Assembly (NCBI GenBank): GCA_027596945.1
Contig: JADGJH010001377.1
Span: forward strand, 1 to 10,357
Direction of reading: 5' to 3'
Source of the DNA: Physocladia obscura
Lineage: Eukaryota; Chytridiomycota; Chytridiomycetes; Chytridiales; Chytriomycetaceae
Length of the DNA stretch: 10,357 bases
Shown here: in pieces, positions 443 through 10,357 of the stretch
Numbering within the stretch: the stretch's first letter is position 1
Layout: every line of letters begins with the position of its first letter
Position numbers and translations under genes: made by a program
Notes under the pieces: model-generated
The model's database searches: none
The model's input: the letters and a program-made list of their open reading frames with translations, nothing else
Told to the model about the DNA's origin: nothing

Positions 443-3400
443 TCATTTTGTAAGTGTCGTGGCTATCACGTCATCGTCGGTATCTTTTTCTCCAGTCATC
501 TGGTAACTTATGTTTCAAAAAAAAAACACAACCTAAAAAAAATAATTAACCTGAACAATATTTTTCGCATACAAAGCACCAAAGATTTCTGCTGCGTAAT
601 CACAAATTCGTTGAACTGTTTTCGTGTTTCCAAACTGCCCACCCAGGTTTTCAACAGCATAAATTCTACGAAACGCGATATCATGTAAAAAATAAAAATA
701 AGAAAAACATAAAAATCGGCTTAACAGCTGCCAGATCCATAATGACTTTGCGTTCATTCGCAATGCTCCAGACAAAATATTTTTTCCTGATTCGACAGCA
801 TCTGCTTCAAAATAATATTTCGCGAAACTAAAAAAGAAATATCAGCAAAATAAAACAGATATTTCGTCCCATTACATTGGCAAAGTATATAGTACTTCTG
901 ACTGTGTCTTATTCATCATATCCAAAATTTCAGCCGCTTTTTCTCGCGGAAGAAGAGAGACCAGCCTCAGAAGCATTTGCGCACAATCTCGAAAATCCTT
1001 GTGAAAAACAAAAACCAATTAATTTAATTCAAATATATACAGTATTTACCTTGACAGAAACTAAACCACAAATTCCATCAATACCGTCCTTTGATCCTCC
1101 GATTGGACTATCTGAAGGAGCGCCCAAATCATCAACTGCTCGCCATAATACAACCAAAACTCTCTTATATACTTCTCCAACAACATGCCTTATTTCAAAG
1201 GTTAAATATTCATTCCATAACAAAATTCGGTCATCTCGCGATTTGACAACCTCCAGTGCTTGTTCAAACGCGTGTCGCACGTTGGAATGTCCAGTCTCAA
1301 AAAATTGAATGCTTTGAAGCATAAGATAATTAAGCCACAAATAAACATTCGGTTTAAGTGATGAATATGAAGATGAAGCTTTGATATAAGGAGAGAAATC
1401 TGGGGTTTGAATGTTAACGGATAACCCAAGAGCTTTTTCATAGAGTTTCATTGCTTCTTCTCGCACAGTAACAATATTTTCCAGATCAGCTACCAAATCA
1501 ATCTAAGTTTGTGTCAGTCATTGTTGCAAAGAAAAAATGTGATTACCTTTTCAAGGCCACTAAAACAGACGCGAATAGAATTTACAAGCAATTCAACAGC
1601 TTTTGATGCTGCTGGTGAAACAACTTTAAGTGATTGTTTCTTTGAATCTGCAGCGAAAAGATCCTTGACCCATTTATTCACAAGCCCGAATTCTCCAACT
1701 GGTATGGAATAATTATTCAACTAAAAATGTTGTGAAAAATTTAAAAATTAACAAAAAAGTTGAACTTATTTTGTTGCCAAACCTTCACGGACAGCAATAA
1801 TAAGCCTTTACACCACGGCTTCGACTCAATAGCATTCGAAACAAGCCTCTCCACGCGACTACTTTTACTTCGCAGCGAAATAAATTCCACGTAGTTTTTG
1901 AATATTGCAAGGTATGGAACACTCGCTTTCTCGTGAAACGCAGAACTACATTCTTCAACGTAAACGTCCCATGCATGAATACAGTTCTGAAACAACTGCT
2001 TGAACCAGATCATGTCGACTCCAGATGGCGTGTGTATGGCATTTGCAATATCTTTCCCAAATTTCAACAGAAAGTACTCTTGCCGAATGAGATGGTCATA
2101 AGGGTAGTTATAAAATATTCCAGTCGGAAGTGTGCCGTGGTATGTTAAATGCAAATAAATTAGCCAGATTTTTGCAAGATCAGACACAGTCAAAACTTTG
2201 CAATGCAAATATTCTGTAAACGGGTGGAGGCTATTCTTGTCGGCGCGACTATTCGAAGAAAACTTTTCAATGTCCAAAAACTTTCTGGCTCCAAGAAACG
2301 TGTGCAAAAAGACTCGTCCGGATTTTTTTTGCACATCATAATCCAAATACAGTTTCGCCAGTTGTACAACAACTGCTAAAACTGTAGATGACCTCAAACA
2401 AGAATCTACAAAGAACATCAATTTTTTTAAAAAAAAATAGGGTATTGAAAAAAAAAGAATACAGATTTTAATGACTCACCAATTAAGCAATCATCGTCCA
2501 GAAATTTGAAAAGCATTCTTTTCAAAAGTGTTTCCTTTGCATCAACATCTATTTCCCACAAAAAAAATCGCCACCAAAACGCAACGCAATTTGGAATAAA
2601 TCCAAGCCCCTGTTCGAAAATATCCCGTACATCATCATCTTTTGCCCGTCGCATGTAGAGCTCGATATAAAACATCCATAATTCTTCGGAATTATTAATT
2701 TGTTCCACAGCTTCCACAAGTACATCTATACATGCAACTATATCCTTATTCGTCTTTCGGAACTCCTTCGCAGATAGCATGCTTGGCAAAAGTGAATGAG
2801 CATATGAAATTCGCAGCGAAACATTTTTGGGATCTCGTTCAATCATGGCCTTGTGTTCGCTTTCTTCTAACGGAATTTCAAAGTAACGTTCGAATTTTGC
2901 TTTCTCGCCGTCGCAAACACGTTGGATTCCTTTCAAGAAAATCGGTTGGTTTGTCGGGAGAAGAAATGGAGGGTACTCTTGATGCACAACAACAGCATGC
3001 GCATCTCGGAACACATTATTACCCCCAGGATTCAATTGCTCGTTCAGGGCCTTGCAAACGGCACCGTTTGCTGATTTGAAAACTACTGTGTGATCTTTAG
3101 CATGGGCGTTTCGAAAGTCGATTATCAAACGAACAATATCGTCGTATGTCGTCCCTTTTCCGCGACTTTGTTGGATTAACGCACGCACTTCAGCGACATT
3201 GATATTTGGGTCGCTTTCAAGGTGCGCAAGTAAATCAAGCACGACCTCGTTTTCTGGAGAAAAACAGGAAAAATAATGAGAAACTGGTTTAAACACAAAG
3301 CTTCAATTTAAAACATACCAGACAGAGACGAATCTCGAAAGTGTTGACCAGAACACGCAGGATCATTACATGCAATATCAGCAGTTTCATTTTTGCACAT

Positions 3401-6400
3401 AACTTTGAAAACATCAATCTTGTTTCCCAAGCCCAATTGTTTCGCCACTACCGATTCTCCATTTTGTAATAAATTAAAATAACGGTAAGACCGAAATTGA
3501 ATCAAAGGGCTTTCAAAAGGAACGAACCCAGCAACAGTAGATGTTTTTTGAGACTAATTAAAACAATTATTCAGAAATTGGATTTGAACAGAAAAGCAAC
3601 ATAAATTTAGGTATACCTTAATCTGACCCAATCCATCATCCAGAGGCACATTTGATCCATACAAATCTGAAAGTCTGCAAACTTCTGACATTTTAACCAA
3701 ACAACCTCCAATAACATACAGCCGATCAACAGTTGTCTCTTGCTCCCACACAATACGTGAAAACTTTTCCTCTCGATCAACAGTAGCCGAAACACTCTCA
3801 TTTACATTTCGAAAAGCTGCTGGCTCCAATGTTTCTCCATCACCACTCTCTAAACCATCAACATCCATATCCCCAAAGCGAATAAAATCATCCTCACTCA
3901 CAATAACCTGCTGCATCTTTGTCTCAATTTTGGCTCTCTTATAATCCCCGCCTTGTATTGTACCAACACGCTTCCCATATTTTTGTTGCTGCTGTTGCGG
4001 CACAATTACTTGTTGCTGCGTCTGCTCTTTCCTCAGCTTATCTTTCATCCTCTGCTCTTTCTTCAGCTTTTGCGATACTTCAAGTAATTGCATCCGCCGG
4101 CCATTCAACGCCCCACGCAGATTTCCAGCAGCACTCACTTTTAGCAAAATAGTTTTTTTCGCATTTGCCAAAGTATTACCTACATCTTCGCGCTCACGTT
4201 CCGTTTGAATGAGTCCTGTCCGTGCAACTGCAAGATTCTCTTCAAGCTTTGCTATCTCGCTTTTCTGCGTCTCAAGCTGCGCATCCAAATGTTCGACAGT
4301 CTTTGTGAGAACAGGTAGTTGAGATTCAAGGGTCGCGATATTGCCGAGCGCCGAGGCTAGGAGAGCTTCGTCGGCAGCAATCTGGGATTCAAGAGTGTTT
4401 TTTGTTGCAGAAGTTGATGACAATGCCGATGTAACTGCACGAGGTGAAGATGGATTCGATGGATATTCAAGAGTGTTGTTGACAGCAGAAGTTGGCAAAC
4501 TTGCTGATACGCGAGGCGATGACGGATTTGACGGTGAGTCTAAATGCGTCGGAGTTTTTTCCTTCAGGGACGAGGGCTTCTGTAATACAGCAATAACAGG
4601 TTGAGGTGTTTGTGGAGAAATAATGCTGGCTACCATAAGCGACGACGAAGCAGTTATCTGTGGGTTTGCAACAGAAGCTGGCAAAATAACCACGTTCCCA
4701 AACCTATTACCAACACCGTCATTATGATCTTTAGTTTCAGATTTTCTATCTGACATCTCAACATCGCCATTGATTTCTGGTTTTAGTTCACTTGGATTCT
4801 CCTCTTTCATCTGGCTAATTTCGCCCTTGGAACAACTAACACTTCCTTCTCCTCCAACGGCTACTCCTGGAACAGGGCTACTGGGCGGAAGAGGACTCGC
4901 CAACGAATCGATGCTACCAAGAGCCTGATCAATCTCGTTTTTTTTTCTTGTCGCTGCCTTTTCTGCTTCCTTCGCCGCAATCGCTTCTTTCATTTTCCGA
5001 ATTTTTTCTTCGAGCGTCAACGTCTTGACAGCGAGTTTCGTTTTCTGTTCATTTGATTCTCCGCCACTGTTATTAGCCACCGCTGATTTTTCATCCACTT
5101 TTTTATCGTCATCGACAACACTACTATCACCGTCGCTATCTTCATCTTCATCTTCACTGACAATAAACGGCGTAACGCGATTCGACGGATTCGGTGGTAT
5201 AAAAGCGCGTCGGCTTGTCAACGATTGCAGTGGCGATGGCGAGGTGACGGAGCTTTGAGGCGAACTCATATCGGCAGAAGAGGGTTTCGGCGAATTCAGA
5301 CGGAGATTCAAATCAGCTGCCGTAGGGCGGTTTTGGCGAGCCCAGATTGCAGCTTGAGCGGATATAAATGGAGCATTGTCGATTTTATGTGAGAACCCTA
5401 TTTTTTCAGTGATAGAACAAAAAAAAAATTTCTGTCAACCAGAAAACAAGATTTCTGCGTTGTAATTTACCATTAGTAAGAGTATGAAGATCAGAAGGTG
5501 CTTCAGTTTTAACAATAGAATTTGATGAGTTTGGCGAGGATGAGAGGGCAGGCGTAACAAGGTTACTGGTGTTGTTGAAACTGGAAAGTTTTGTCCGCCA
5601 ATTTTTGGCAATATTAGATGATTCCGAGGACGAAGAGTACTCATCAAGGGTATCCGCTTCCGACTCGGTTTTTGACAACCGCCCCAGACTGCTTGGTTTC
5701 TCAGACTTAATTTTTTCACTGTTTTCGGGAAATTGCTCGTCAGATTCGCTAATTTCCATATCAGATTCTGAAGATTCGCGTTCTTGAACTTCTTCAGACG
5801 TCTGATTTAGAGGTAAACTTGCTGAAGATTCGGATTTTTCAAAATTTGAAGTGGGTGTTGTAACGACTGAAAGTTTCGAAGCACGTAAAGTTGAACGAAG
5901 TTTTTCCAGAAGTGACATTGGTGGGTCACTTTTTGTTTTCTGTTTGTCCAATTCATGCAGTTTGAAGCCATCTTGGAGAATTTGACTACTTTCAGCCATA
6001 CCTGGAAGAATAGTGTCAGTTTTGGACAAATTTCCATTTGATTCTCCAGCTCTAGTTCCTGAAAAATCAGAAACAAGCGTTTGCAAATCAGCTTCAGTCT
6101 TGATTGAAGTTACACTTGAACTCAATATAGTACCATTCACCCCAAAGTCGTCAGTTCGGTTATATACTCGCGCCACATTTTGCGTCAGCTGCCGTTCCGC
6201 TTTTTTGCTCATTTTTACTGGTTCTGGAATTCCCAAAGTTCGAGCATTGTCCACAAGTGATATCAGACGGTCTTCTTTGTTGGCTTGCTTTTTTGCCACT
6301 CGGTAGCTTCGAAGTAGAGATGTAGTTGTGGTAGCAGCGGATGTAATGAGAGAAGAAGCATGTATGATGGCGGAGGAGGAGCTTGAAGTTGCGGCAGTAG

Positions 6401-7627
6401 AATCTGGCTCAATGGCTGCAATCGATTGTATATCTCTTTGCATTTGCGCAACTTTTTTTTGCTTACGCGTCTGGGAAATTATTTCGTTTTGCCTTCTCTG
6501 AGGACTTTGCTGCAAGTAAGACTTTTTCTGCTGCACTTTCTGAGACTGCTGTGACTTTTGTTTTTGTCCTAAGTGTTTTTGTTTTGACGGACTCGCTTTT
6601 TTCGGGAAGTTTTGGAGCAGCTGGCGTTGCGGTAGTTGCTGGCGAGAAGGTGCAGGGATTGAGATTGAGATTGGCGCAGGTGGCGTTGAGGCAGGGATGG
6701 TAAAGCATGAGACAATAAGATCCGGCGCCAAGCCCATTGTTTGCAAATGCGACGGAGAAAATTTGGCCAGAAGCTGTGCAATTAGCGCACGCAATTTGGA
6801 AGCTTCGTCCGGTGGGAGGCGTAACAATGCTGTGAGTTTGTTTTTTATTTTTTCAATATTATTAGTCAGATAGAAAAAGAAAAAAAGTCACTTTGAAGCT
6901 GAGTTTGCACAGGAAGTCGAATAAGCGAAGCAAGAGGAATATACTGCGCATCTAGTTTCAGTAGTGCGGTTGCCGGATCGATATCGGCAGCGATGTTTGC
7001 GTTTGGGCTTGAGTTGGAAGTCAAACCATTGGTGACTGAGAAGCTCGATGTGCGCGACCAATTAGGAATATTGGCGCTAGTAGTATTTGCGGCATAATAT
7101 GGGGTAATGATTGGGTTAATGGGACTGAGAGATTGAATTTGCTGTGTGTTTGTGAACAGAAAACCGGAGTGGTAAAACGGAGGTTGAAAAACATTAAAAA
7201 GATGCGAAATTGGCTGCGGTTGCTGCTGTTGGAATGGGTTTGGCGGAAGCTGCAGCTGAAGTGAGGCTGGTGACTGCGATTGTTGGATGATTGGGAGATT
7301 CAAAGTATGGTGTTGTTCTCGTTCTTGTTGCCGTTTTTGTTCTCGTTCTCGATCTCGATCTCGTTGCTGATTGTGCTGACGCTGTTGAGCCCACAAACTT
7401 TGGCGGTAATCGAGCGAGTAGTCCTTGATTTGACCCTCCTCCTCCTCGGTACTGCTGCCGTCTTTATCCTCGATTCCGGTGTCGACCTCATAATCTTTCT
7501 CGTAATCTTTCCCATTATCTTTCTCTTTATCGACAGAATTATCCTTAGAGGAGTCGCTTTCGTTTACATTGTTTCTGTTGTCTTCGTCGCTGTACAAGTT
7601 GACGCTTTCTTCGTCGTCGTCTCTCAT
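443..7627 (-). CDS. ZFC3H1: ZFC3H1/Red1-family nuclear RNA-decay scaffold, 12 exons
   Basis: Exons in transcript order: 7627-6892, 6829-5471, 5397-3617, 3553-3319, 3253-2480, 2405-1783, 1720-1547, 1502-1050, 997-876, 827-726, 665-551, 499-443 (TGA 445-443). All introns are GT-AG, phases agree at every junction, and the product is 2176 aa; human ZFC3H1 is about 2000. Order: acidic N-terminus (1-70), Q/S/R-rich disorder, coiled coils (about 824-854 and 1034-1159), a segment with ESPLIQFRSYR just before a C-x8-C-x4-C-x3-H zinc finger (C1345, C1354, C1359, H1363), then HAT-like repeats from about 1490 to the end. Known for the family: ZFC3H1 bridges MTR4 to poly(A)-binding protein in the human PAXT complex, and Red1 organises fission-yeast MTREC, for nuclear exosome decay. 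The start is the first in-frame ATG before the acidic stretch; the frame stays open upstream to 7777 without an ATG. Family assignment is strong; orthology and the last three introns are less certain. Confidence 0.85.
551..2894 (-). other. C-terminal HAT/TPR-like helical repeat array
   Basis: Exons 5 to 11 encode repeated helical pairs with the HAT signature of a Trp in helix A and an aromatic or Glu a few residues later. Examples: ELWMFYIELYMRRA and FWWRFFLWEID (exon 5), NVYLWLNYLML and ILLWNEYLTFE (exon 8), SLWIWQLIYAVEN (across the exon 10/11 junction). Helix B segments such as VRDIFEQGLGF, VRHAFEQALEV and VQRICDYAAE fit the R..(F/Y)..A half. Human ZFC3H1 carries a comparable C-terminal repeat region; such arrays are protein-binding solenoids in RNA-processing factors. 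The exact repeat number cannot be fixed by eye. Confidence 0.75.
3341..3397 (-). other. zf-C3H1 zinc-finger motif within the ZFC3H1-like protein
   Basis: Residues 1345-1363, wholly inside exon 4. The ligands read C-x8-C-x4-C-x3-H, with the sequence CNDPACSGQHFRD over the last three ligands. This CND..C...QH.RD pattern is the hallmark of the putative zinc-finger domain that defines the ZFC3H1/Red1 family (Pfam zf-C3H1, PF10650). About 35 residues earlier the family-typical SPL..F.SYR segment is present, which supports a true homologue rather than a chance CCCH finger. All four zinc ligands are intact. Confidence 0.85.
4016..4393 (-). other. Long coiled coil 2 (residues about 1034-1159)
   Basis: About 125 residues without proline except one near the start, with Leu/Ile/Val at heptad spacing (for example TVEHLDAQLETQKSEIAKLE and LLEVSQKLKKEQRMKDKLRK). 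It ends in a polyglutamine-rich tail (QTQQQ, then QQQQQ, about 3983-4024) before an acidic linker leading to the zinc-finger exon. Its likely role is dimerisation or scaffolding. Confidence 0.7.
4387..4540 (-). repeat. Imperfect 78-nt tandem duplication inside exon 3
   Basis: Two diverged head-to-tail copies, about 4387-4464 and 4465-4540, both opening on the plus strand with ATTCAAGAGTG. On the coding strand each copy encodes the octamer PSNPSSPR followed by a Ser/Thr/Ala-rich stretch ending in N-T-L-E or N-N-T-L-E. The offset of 78 nt is 26 codons, so the frame is kept. It sits in the disordered linker directly before coiled coil 2. Confidence 0.7.
4931..5023 (-). other. Short coiled coil 1 (residues about 824-854)
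   Basis: An uninterrupted E/K/A-rich helix (core EEKIRKMKEAIAAKEAEKAA) with heptad-like hydrophobics. It lies just after an acidic patch (SEDEDEDSDGD, residues about 778-788) and before a Ser/Pro-rich linker. It is probably an oligomerisation or partner-binding helix in the ZFC3H1-like protein; no partner can be named from sequence. Confidence 0.6.
6438..6581 (-). repeat. Gln/Lys-rich tract in exon 2 (residues about 329-376)
   Basis: Low-complexity Q/K/S-rich segment (for example KSQQSQKVQQKKSYLQQSPQ) in the predicted disordered N-terminal half, preceded by a Pro/Ser/Ile run. The basic clusters (RRQN, RKQKK) could act as a nuclear localisation signal, which would suit a nuclear protein; this is inference. 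Confidence 0.5.
7310..7387 (-). repeat. Low-complexity Arg/Asp/Glu/Gln tract in exon 1
   Basis: Alternating RD and RE dipeptides flanked by Gln runs (QQRDRDREREQKRQQ), produced by CGA/GAx-type hexamers seen on the plus strand as repeated TCTCGA/TCTCGT. Such RD/RE tracts are common in nuclear RNA-processing proteins. The tract follows the acidic N-terminus (residues 1-70, rich in D, E, N, S, K). Confidence 0.6.
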
Positions 7628-8828
7628 TTGAACAATGACGACTGAAAATGTGAGAAATATCAACAAAATTTGTTTTGTCAATAGAGAGATTTTGCAATCA
7701 ATAGGCTGGGTTGAATTGTTCAAGGAATAAGGTTGGGCAAAACGCGGGCAGACGGGGATGTTGCCAAGACACCCCAAATGCCAATTTTATTGAGAAATAC
7801 AAAAATAAAATCAAAAGAAAACAGGCACGAAGCTTGCGTAGTGGGTGGAGGGTAGGGGGTATGACTGCACTAGACGTGGGTCATTAAAGAGAAAAAGATA
7901 AAGAAAATTTTAAACTTGACAAGTCTCCTTACCTTGTTGAACTGGTTTTAATAAATCAAAATCTTGCAGATAGGTTATTACTTTGAAGAGTTTTGGTCTG
8001 ATTTTTTGTCAAGTTTCTTGGGGAAATGCTTGCCTTTTATAGAAGTGAGAAAAGTAATTGAATAGTACCACTTTAAAAGCTAGAATATTCTACAATATTC
8101 TTGCACAACAGCAAGAGTTCAAATAAAAAAACCTGCATAATAAGAAATATCCCATTGTGAAACCAGTTTTTTGGATTTGCATCAATAAGCACGCAGGAAT
8201 TTTTCTGTTTTCAGACAAAGTGATATGAAGGAGTTGATTTAGATTTGCAACAAGGTTTTAAAATTTTTGTATCAATATCAATTAAAAAACTGAAACATGT
8301 GAGGCACAGTTTCATTTTCAACATAAAGCGGTGCAGTAAAAACAGTATCACATTATACTCTTAAAAATTAATTGAAAACTCAAAATGAGCAAATGCATTT
8401 TCAGTATTCAAATTTGTTTTGAAAACATGGCTTACAAGTGCCACCCTGTGATATTTTTTGGGTAGCTGACAGAAAGATTATAGATGGGAGAAGTGAACTG
8501 TTTGTAAGTTTCAAAGTGTTATGTGCAGGAAACTATTGATAGTTTTTTTTTGGGAAGTATCATGGTCCATTTGATAAATGGGAAATCTCTTGTTAAAAAA
8601 GCGGATTCTTTTTGTCAGAAGCTTTTTCATTTGCTGCACACACAGTTTAAAAAAGACGTGTTTCTGCTCTGCCTTCCCTTTAGACAATTAGGCGTGTTTG
8701 CAAGAAGAACTCACTGTTTCTACACAATCCTCGCAACTCCATATTTCACAGCAGTTGCTCATCAAGTTTTTTAAGTATATTGAATTGTTATTGCATCTCA
8801 TCATTCATTTGGTTTGTTCAGATAACCA
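7628..8828. other. Intergenic region without a recognisable gene
   Basis: This separates the ZFC3H1-like start from the first plus-strand fragment. Near the left end it must hold the minus-strand promoter and 5' UTR. Visible there are a pyrimidine-rich stretch ending in TTTTCAG just before the ATG (acceptor-like), a donor-like CAAG/GTAAGG on the minus strand at about 7932, and a G-rich patch at 7841-7859. Pairing that donor and acceptor would make a 5'-UTR intron of nearly 300 nt, much longer than the others, so I do not call it. Rightwards the DNA is AT-rich with short open frames (8127-8228, 8224-8364, 8523-8774) that I cannot assign. No tRNA or other RNA gene was seen. Confidence 0.6.
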
Positions 8829-9336
8829 ATGTGTGAAAAAAAAAAAAAAAGAACTGTGTCCAGCCCTTCATCTGGAGCAAAAAAGTCAAAATCCTCTGGT
8901 TCTTATGATTATGCAGCAGGAAGACTGGTGCTTTCTTCAAAACCGCCAGTAAGACGTACAACTTCCTTGAGTCAACTAACAAAAGGAAATGGCTCACCTT
9001 TTGGAAGCCAGGCTAATAATAATCAGCTATCAAATGGCGACTCTTCATTAAATTCCAGTATTCCAGCAGAAGTACAAATACATCCTTCAATCCAGCCATC
9101 AAATGGCAGTTTTTCTGATGGTTGAGCTTATAAACCAAAAAGTCCAATCATTATTGTGCTTCAATGCCAAAAGCAGTGTAGCCAAAACAACAACAGCAAT
9201 CAATGTTGCCTTTGACTTTGCTCGAGAAGGAAAGAAGACATTGTTGGTTGATGTAGACCCACAGTGCAATTTGACAAAGACATTGATTAAAAATGATGAT
9301 GATCCTCCATTGGATCTTGACATTCCAAATTGTTGA
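8829..9336 (+). pseudogene. Decayed ParA/Soj (SIMIBI-class) ATPase, N-terminal half
   Basis: ATG at 8829 opens a Ser/Asn-rich leader with a basic patch (KKKKRT, then AKKSK). It stops at TGA 9123-9125, but the same frame resumes with KPKSPIIIV, the usual first strand of ParA ATPases. A frameshift at about 9159 then moves into the frame carrying the deviant Walker A region (9163-9195), AFDFAREGKKTLLVDVDPQ (helix 1 and strand 2) and CNLTKTL, ending at a TGA (9334-9336). Walker A should read KGGxGKT; here it is KSSVAKT, with three Gly replaced, so ATP binding is very unlikely. No Walker B or C-terminal half follows. The family (PF13614/CbiA-like) is clear from the LLVDVDPQCNLT block. ParA proteins segregate DNA in bacteria and plasmids and also occur in large DNA viruses. 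It is a pseudogene by stop, frameshift, motif loss and truncation. Confidence 0.7.
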
Positions 9337-9457
9337 CAATAGTGATATATCAGAGTGTTAAGCAAGCTATGAAAGCAGTGGAAGTCTGGTATCATTAAAC
9401 TGTTGAAGTTTGCATGTAAACTGAAAGCCTTCAAGATCTGCAAAAATTTAAATATTG

Positions 9458-9764
9458 CTTGCAACCTTAAAATTATGTCAAAGAAACGGAATTTGTATAT
9501 CAAATTCAAATGGCTTTCCCAAACTTTATAAAATCAAACAGCAATTCCCTTGTCTGACATACACAATTGATTTATATTTTGTCAAATATAACTTGGTGAT
9601 TGAGTTTGATGAAAATCATTCTTATAAAGGCAGCATAAATGACATACATCAAGCAACAAGCCAAAATTGAAGATTCTTGTCATTGAAAAATGTGGCAAGT
9701 AAAACACAACAAAGATATTTTTGAAACTATCAGTAAAATCATCAAGATAATATTTAACAAATAA
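9458..9764 (+). pseudogene. Decayed giant-virus-type protein fragment with IDLYF...EFDE core
   Basis: An open frame without ATG ends at TGA 9668-9670. Its core (9560-9622) reads TYTIDLYFVKYNLVIEFDEN. The pattern IDLYFPxYxLAIExDE is a recurrent C-terminal domain in proteins of large DNA viruses, often behind KilA-N, Bro-N or MSV199 domains, and resembles the D...ExDE core of restriction-endonuclease-like folds. After the stop another frame (9708-9752) supplies NKDIFETISKIIKII, matching the FDIF..I..II ending typical of the same domain, so at least one frameshift and two TGA codons (9668, and one just before the tail) interrupt it. The family's N-terminal DNA-binding domain is not visible. I infer nuclease-like ancestry; no function is likely now. 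Confidence 0.55.
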
Positions 9765-9817
9765 TGCCTTTTGGCTTAAAGAAAAGAGAACTAAGAACTA
9801 CAACAACAAAAAAAAAA

Positions 9818-10009
9818 ATGGAAGAAAAAAATAATGCTGATGACATTTGTCAATGTCCCATTTGTTGACAGGAATTTCAAAATGAATACATTTGGAGCCT
9901 TGCAAAATGTTCTCATTTTGTTTGCAAATCTTGTTACAAGGAGCATACAAAAATGTCAGATCAGTGTCCACTTTGTAGGGCTCCAATTTACAACATGCAC
10001 TGGGAATAA
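9818..10009 (+). pseudogene. Small stand-alone RING-finger protein with one in-frame TGA
   Basis: ATG 9818 to TAA 10007-10009, 63 codons plus stop, interrupted only by TGA at 9866-9868. Around it is a complete C3HC4 RING: CPIC, 14 positions (counting the stop), then C-S-H-F-V-C-K-S-C, 10 residues, then CPLC. All eight zinc ligands are present, with the hydrophobic and Arg residues that usually follow the last pair (CPLCRAPI). Such RINGs bind E2 ubiquitin-conjugating enzymes. A minimal RING with almost nothing else is unusual for a host gene and common in large DNA viruses. With the standard code it makes only a 16-residue peptide, hence pseudogene; a sequencing error or a reassigned TGA would make it whole. 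Confidence 0.65.
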
Positions 10010-10357
10010 GGAAATGACAACAGTGTTTTTGTTTCTTGTATGCCCTAAACATACAAGAACAATAACATTTACAAAACTGCTTAGACCATATCTTCATTAA
10101 TGGGGAATGGATCAAAGTAGTACATCAGTATTGTTTAACACATTGAGTGAGCAACCAAATCTGTGCAAAAAAAAAATCAAATCTGTGCAAACCAAAAAAT
10201 GACATTTTCATGCCAAACACAATCACCAACAGATGACCACCTTTCAAATTTCAGAAATATATTGAATGAATGAACTTCTCTATTGATAATGGAGGGCATT
10301 GAGCCAGAATCATCACAGCTAAATTTGAGACACTTTTTCACACTTAAGTTTTACAGC
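10010..10357 (+). other. AT-rich right end with short overlapping open frames, unassigned
   Basis: Two tiny frames overlap by an ATGA: 10107-10202 (31 codons, starts MDQSSTSVLF, contains a run of Lys from an A10 tract) and 10199-10273 (24 codons, starts MTFSCQTQSP). A third frame is open through the right edge (contains MEGIEPESSQLNLRHFF). They could be frameshifted pieces of one more decayed gene, in keeping with the neighbours, but I recognise no domain and the lengths are within chance for such DNA. Confidence 0.25.
10156..10191. repeat. 14-bp perfect direct repeat, period 22
   Basis: CAAATCTGTGCAAA occurs at 10156-10169 and again at 10178-10191, separated by an A-rich spacer (A7, T). It may be slippage or a small duplication in the decayed region. 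No terminal inverted repeats accompany it. Confidence 0.8.

Follow-up and report, generated by a model that had tools for sequence, protein, structure and literature searches.

A decayed cluster with ParA-type ATPase and RING-finger remnants in the chytrid Physocladia obscura, possibly a relic of a large-DNA-virus-type element

Genes and repeats of the window

The window (the whole stretch of DNA that was analysed, 10,357 bp) is the complete contig C1178 of Physocladia obscura (Chytridiales). The fungal host supposed in a preliminary description of this DNA, made from the letters alone, is thus a chytrid. The genome searched comprises 21,758,710 bases in 1,222 contigs; the contigs met there are at least 10 kb long, and smaller ones may be absent. 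One Physocladia protein considered below, HK100_006121, sits on a 5-kb contig. The left part of the window carries a gene of several exons (Table 1). Its zf-C3H1 domain was matched above the cut-off (PF10650, E 4e-6), and its HAT repeats slightly below (HAT_PRP39_N, E 6.4e-6). Judged from these domains, it is probably a normal nuclear gene for RNA processing.

Table 1. Features of the window, with positions in bp
Feature	Position	Strand	Basis
Host gene, several exons	540..7627	-	zf-C3H1 (3308-3505) and HAT-like repeats; ends approximate, by eye from open reading frames
Dispersed repeat of about 270 bp with fixed ends	7698..7967		41 of the 44 matches listed for the genome; lower bound, 40 of 104 candidates scored
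Repeat common to C1218, which also carries a ParA	7970..8188		93% over 224 columns
Repeat common to C566	8330..8550		90% over 221 bp
Open frame of 98 codons, Ser/Lys-rich	8829..9125	+	Possible ParA leader in another frame; position and composition only
ParA-type ATPase fragment, degenerate Walker A	9103..9336	+	CbiA E 1.6e-12, AAA_31 E 2.5e-12 (Pfam)
IDLYF/EFDE stretch, possible PD-(D/E)XK-like nuclease motif, DUF559-like	9455..9670	+	Sub-threshold Pfam match
RING-finger frame, one in-frame TGA at 9866-9868	9764..10009	+	zf-C3HC4_3 E 1.6e-8 for 9869-10006
Dispersed-repeat fragment, contains the end of the RING frame	10004..10145		31 of the 35 matches listed for the genome
Contig-end repeat common to C1210, close to the end there	10207..10357		95% over 151 bp

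The right half of the window contains several repeats. Aligned copies of the repeat at 7698-7967 are 87-94% alike, and no target-site duplication was evident by eye. Copies of this repeat were also seen on C437 and C1120, and head-to-tail copies occur in two loci. Some of the 31 matches to the fragment at 10004-10145 are short pieces at contig ends. This fragment also has a short inverted repeat (CTTGTATG...CATACAAG). Because a large share of the right half is made up of repeats that recur elsewhere in the genome, it is probably genuine fungal DNA, and contamination is disfavoured.

An assembly chimera, in which a fungal gene was joined to unrelated DNA, was also considered. The junction would fall in the dispersed repeat at 7698-7967, and such repeats are prone to misjoins in short-read assemblies. 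However, further contigs of this genome also carry the repeats of the right half, which lowers the probability of a chimera, and paralogues of the ParA are present in the genome as well. A chimera is therefore very improbable, and if two parts of this one genome had been misjoined, the cluster described below would still be real.

The decayed cluster

Three gene remnants lie on the forward strand within 1.2 kb, at 8829-10009: a ParA-type ATPase, the IDLYF/EFDE stretch, and a RING finger. The arrangement agrees with the preliminary description, as does the decay of all three pieces; the RING frame has an in-frame TGA and the ParA is incomplete. The proposed identities held for ParA and RING, both matched by Pfam; the IDLYF/EFDE stretch is only weakly DUF559-like and stays below the threshold. 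When 7970-10357 was dinucleotide-shuffled 2000 times, the RING pattern was never reproduced; the IDLYF-like pattern and the ParA DxDxQxN pattern were each reproduced once, and a loose Walker A 28 times. The patterns were devised post hoc, so these counts are flattering. The GC content of 8829-10357 is 0.338, inside the range of six other Physocladia loci (0.316-0.391), which speaks against a viral reading.

The cluster at 8829-10009 is genuine and consists of foreign DNA, now decayed, within the chytrid genome. It is most likely non-functional today, and lies in a repeat-rich gap next to an ordinary gene. The earlier claim that a fungal chromosome holds decayed genes from a foreign source is borne out by the ParA homology and by the repeats common to other contigs, but not in the part that assigned them to a virus.

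The RING finger is minimal, as had been noted before, and its match is above the Pfam cut-off with the C3HC4-type zinc ligands present. The first CxxC directly precedes the TGA at 9866-9868, which breaks the core. The last codon of the frame and its stop (10004-10009) fall within the dispersed repeat. The best relative among the PDB sequences is RNF4 (E 1.8e-6), and a single weak match was found among the phage records (E 0.1). RING fingers are common in eukaryotes, which weighs against a viral reading. No second match to this RING was found in the genome search, where four candidates were scored.

The IDLYF/EFDE stretch was matched to DUF559 on 9500-9667 with E 0.007 and 16.6 bits, where the cut-off is 20.6. 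Three trims of the piece gave E 0.007, 0.013, and 0.057, each under the family cut-off. No match was found in NCBIfam, PHROGs, the PDB sequences, or the phage records. The model predicted from the single sequence has three strands and a helix (E-E-E-H, mean pLDDT 65.6); its fold search returned no viral structure at E <= 0.001, the best E being 0.055. The DNA pattern was found nowhere in the viral_contigs collection, which we guess may be poor in Nucleocytoviricota. One viral_contigs match of the piece (L036) was rejected, with stops flanking the match in frame and phage-like neighbours.

The three pieces might instead be unrelated scraps in a repeat-rich region: the ParA a pseudogene that came from bacteria, the IDLYF frame a product of chance, and the RING a pseudogene of the fungus. 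The nuclease piece under the cut-off, the generic type of the RING, the scattered repeats that fill the region, and the mostly bacterial-type ParA relatives among the best 120 listed are all consistent with this explanation. However, the pieces are tightly spaced on one strand, the IDLYF-like pattern arose in only one of the 2000 shuffles (with the post-hoc pattern), and the RING was without a second match in the genome search (four candidates scored). Independent origins of the three pieces are thus considered unlikely.

The ParA fragment and its relatives

The ParA-type ATPase remnant named in the preliminary description was recovered by its P-loop homology (Table 1). It is a fragment of 77 residues, which stops shortly after DPQCNLT. 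The C-terminal half was not found in the window, and the ParA has neither full length nor an intact Walker A, which reads KSSVAKTTT instead of KGGVGKTTT. The Ser/Lys-rich frame upstream occupies the position of the leader in related ParAs (P0001, P0002, and P0003). Homology of this frame to a leader was tried in six comparisons and is unsupported; 93 to 711 of 1000 shuffles matched the score.

A profile search found ParA matches at two places in the genome, the window and contig C1218, and the two copies are 53% identical. The C1218 protein is identical to HK100_001940 across its 188 residues, and a third Physocladia ParA, HK100_006121, is 90% identical to the C1218 copy. The C1218 ParA retains KGGVGKTTT, and its frame is broken in the C-terminal half, as judged by eye. 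Over 43 codons, the window and C1218 copies differ at 8 first, 13 second, and 24 third codon positions; dN is 0.25, and dS was not computable (-1), which is read as saturation. Since the differences are mainly at third codon positions, and since dead copies would not give such a pattern, protein-level constraint must have acted on both ParA lines before they decayed. A common element layout of the window and C1218 was also considered but rejected; their common repeat is 93% identical whereas the ParAs have diverged much further, and the relative orientation is not the same.

Protein databases were queried with the C1218 copy and then with the alignment, and the best 120 relatives were taken each time. 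Outside Physocladia, the relatives are P0003 and bacterial-type or phage ParAs, mostly bacterial-type among the best 120. P0003 has 304 aa, with a Ser-rich leader and a ParA domain, and is the closest non-Physocladia protein of this layout among the best 120. When the window fragment was searched by plain BLASTP, P0003 ranked 129th of 263 rows, behind many bacterial-type and phage ParAs.

The phylogenetic tree of ParA was built from 56 rows and 85 columns, which drew a program warning about the small number of columns and about long branches, including that of the window row. Within these limits, the window copy grouped with two Physocladia proteins at 98/92. P0003 came next to this Physocladia group at 94/81, in the same short alignment and among rows without any known Nucleocytoviricota; its low BLASTP rank speaks against this placement. 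The phylogeny suggested in the preliminary description therefore places the fragment with the Physocladia copies; its bearing on viruses is limited by the few columns and by rows that hold no known Nucleocytoviricota.

The window ParA resembles the bacterial-type ParA/Soj partition ATPases in its P-loop and DPQCNLT region. However, it differs from them in being located in a fungal nucleus, truncated, and with a degenerate Walker A, and the related Physocladia copies bear a Ser/Lys-rich leader.

Viral and mobile-element origins

Giant-virus genes in zoosporic fungi have already been published. The preliminary description had mentioned giant-virus insertions in early-diverging fungi, and passages of PMC5294986 bear this out for Gonapodya, Allomyces, and Rhizophagus, where NCLDV-like genes are reported. 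A passage of PMC12993054 cites work by Myers et al. on giant viruses of zoosporic fungi. For Physocladia, the literature search yielded no giant-virus paper, and on the genome of Physocladia obscura a single one, which deals with ataxin-2. The cluster resembles the endogenous giant-virus insertions (Gonapodya, Allomyces; Mycodnaviridae), as far as passages on them describe, in that small islands of viral genes lie amid host genes in a chytrid or related host. It differs in having no hallmark gene seen and in extending over only about 1.2 kb. It also includes a ParA, a word absent from the text consulted of PMC3493329, PMC8715426, PMC10640383, and PMC12455990.

The window RING adjoins a DUF559-like motif, which is reminiscent of the Nucleocytoviricota families with KilA-N, MSV199, DUF559, and RING domains. 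In the passage of PMC8715426 on an NCLDV family cluster, the domains are KilA-N (145), MSV199 (65), RING (16), and DUF559 (1). Passages of PMC3493329 describe fusions of KilA-N proteins with RING, as well as a domain that occurs downstream of KilA, BRO, and MSV199. In contrast to these families, the Physocladia genome has no MSV199 match and the DUF559 match of the window is sub-threshold. The main texts of the two NCLDV overviews, PMC3493329 and PMC8715426, do not contain the word "ParA", which counts against a viral reading. Term searches of the accessible text of PMC10640383 and PMC12455990 gave nothing on ParA, MSV199, or RING.

The giant-virus origin itself was not borne out. No close viral relative emerged, and the capsid, VLTF3, and MSV199 profiles went unmatched in genome searches that had no viral positive control. 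Capsid (PF16903 and PF04451) and VLTF3 (PF04947) profiles matched nothing in the 21.8 Mb genome, and 14 control genomes were likewise silent. MSV199 (PF10553) also had no match in the 21.8 Mb genome; one control genome was matched, below the cut-off. The ParA alignment found 55 loci in viral_contigs, and none of the 55 has nearby, in open stretches of at least 50 residues, either a complete RING pattern or the IDLYF pattern in its strict form. P0003 gave 0 relatives there from six stretches. No close viral relative of the pieces was seen in viral_contigs or the phage records, which also argues against a virus.

A Polinton/Maverick-like or other eukaryotic mobile element, carrying the ParA and the minimal RING as cargo, is a serious rival that ranks second to the virus, and is rated as somewhat unlikely. 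Relics of an integrase and of DNA_pol_B_2 are present in the Physocladia genome, and a ParA or minimal RING lies near two integrases. The rve integrase has 17 matches on 15 contigs, one copy being above the Pfam cut-off (on C1045). On C1218, the ParA and an integrase copy below the cut-off (L005, 8096-8503, forward strand) are about 5 kb apart. On C393, a minimal RING-like piece (L053, 1-168, forward strand) lies about 1.5 kb before an integrase on the same strand. It is 38% identical to the window RING over 34 residues (E 0.007), and Pfam matched it to RING only at E 0.063. The 17 integrase loci (68,318 bases) have a loose RING pattern once, on C393, and the five polymerase loci have none; among the 39 background loci, it is confined to the one that holds the window. 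Of the evidence for a Polinton-like element, this link on C393 is the strongest, yet it is a single weak case. The DNA_pol_B_2 relics on C275 (L127) and C33 (L128), 81% alike over 974 bp, are read as Polinton-like by their motifs; two further polymerase frames there have no Pfam match. Moreover, the window has no integrase or polymerase match, unlike a Polinton/Maverick, in which an integrase and a protein-primed PolB belong to one element. Neither ParA nor the IDLYF-like pattern was found in the five polymerase loci, and ParA occurs on one integrase contig only. With 2 ParA matches against 17 of the integrase, the two do not form one repeated unit. On the reverse strand of C1218 (L005, 9378-9881), an open frame resembles a Crypton-like tyrosine recombinase by eye, with no Pfam or NCBIfam match.

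A relic of a large-DNA-virus-type element in the nuclear genome of Physocladia obscura is tentatively held to be the likeliest single reading of 8829-10009, plausible and unproven. According to this reading, the three pieces would share one origin in an element of large-DNA-virus type that was inserted into the chytrid nuclear genome. The ParA ATPase might have served in positioning or partitioning the DNA of the element. The IDLYF piece may be the former nuclease-like tail of a protein of the KilA-N/MSV199 class, and the RING a former ubiquitin ligase that targeted host proteins. After the insertion, the frames would have been lost and repeats would have cut into the region. If the source was a large DNA virus, Physocladia would be a further fungus in which such infections have left relics.

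More unusual is the nuclear ParA family, in which the copies diverged while the protein was under constraint. This family is a hint of a segregating element in chytrids, either extrachromosomal or integrating. A wider proposal, regarded as quite doubtful, is that Physocladia was invaded repeatedly by little-known large DNA elements of eukaryotes, in which a bacterial-type ParA with a Ser/Lys-rich nuclear leader would segregate the element together with the fungal chromosomes. The relic in the window might then be the older and more broken of the two, and that on C1218 the better preserved.

Another B-type DNA polymerase frame was found at C443:15007-16198 (L122 and L123). Its only interruptions are TAG codons (5 and 4 in the two matched pieces), and it stays open across hundreds of codons when read with NCBI table 16. 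This reading of TAG as Leu suggests a plasmid or insert of mitochondrial type.
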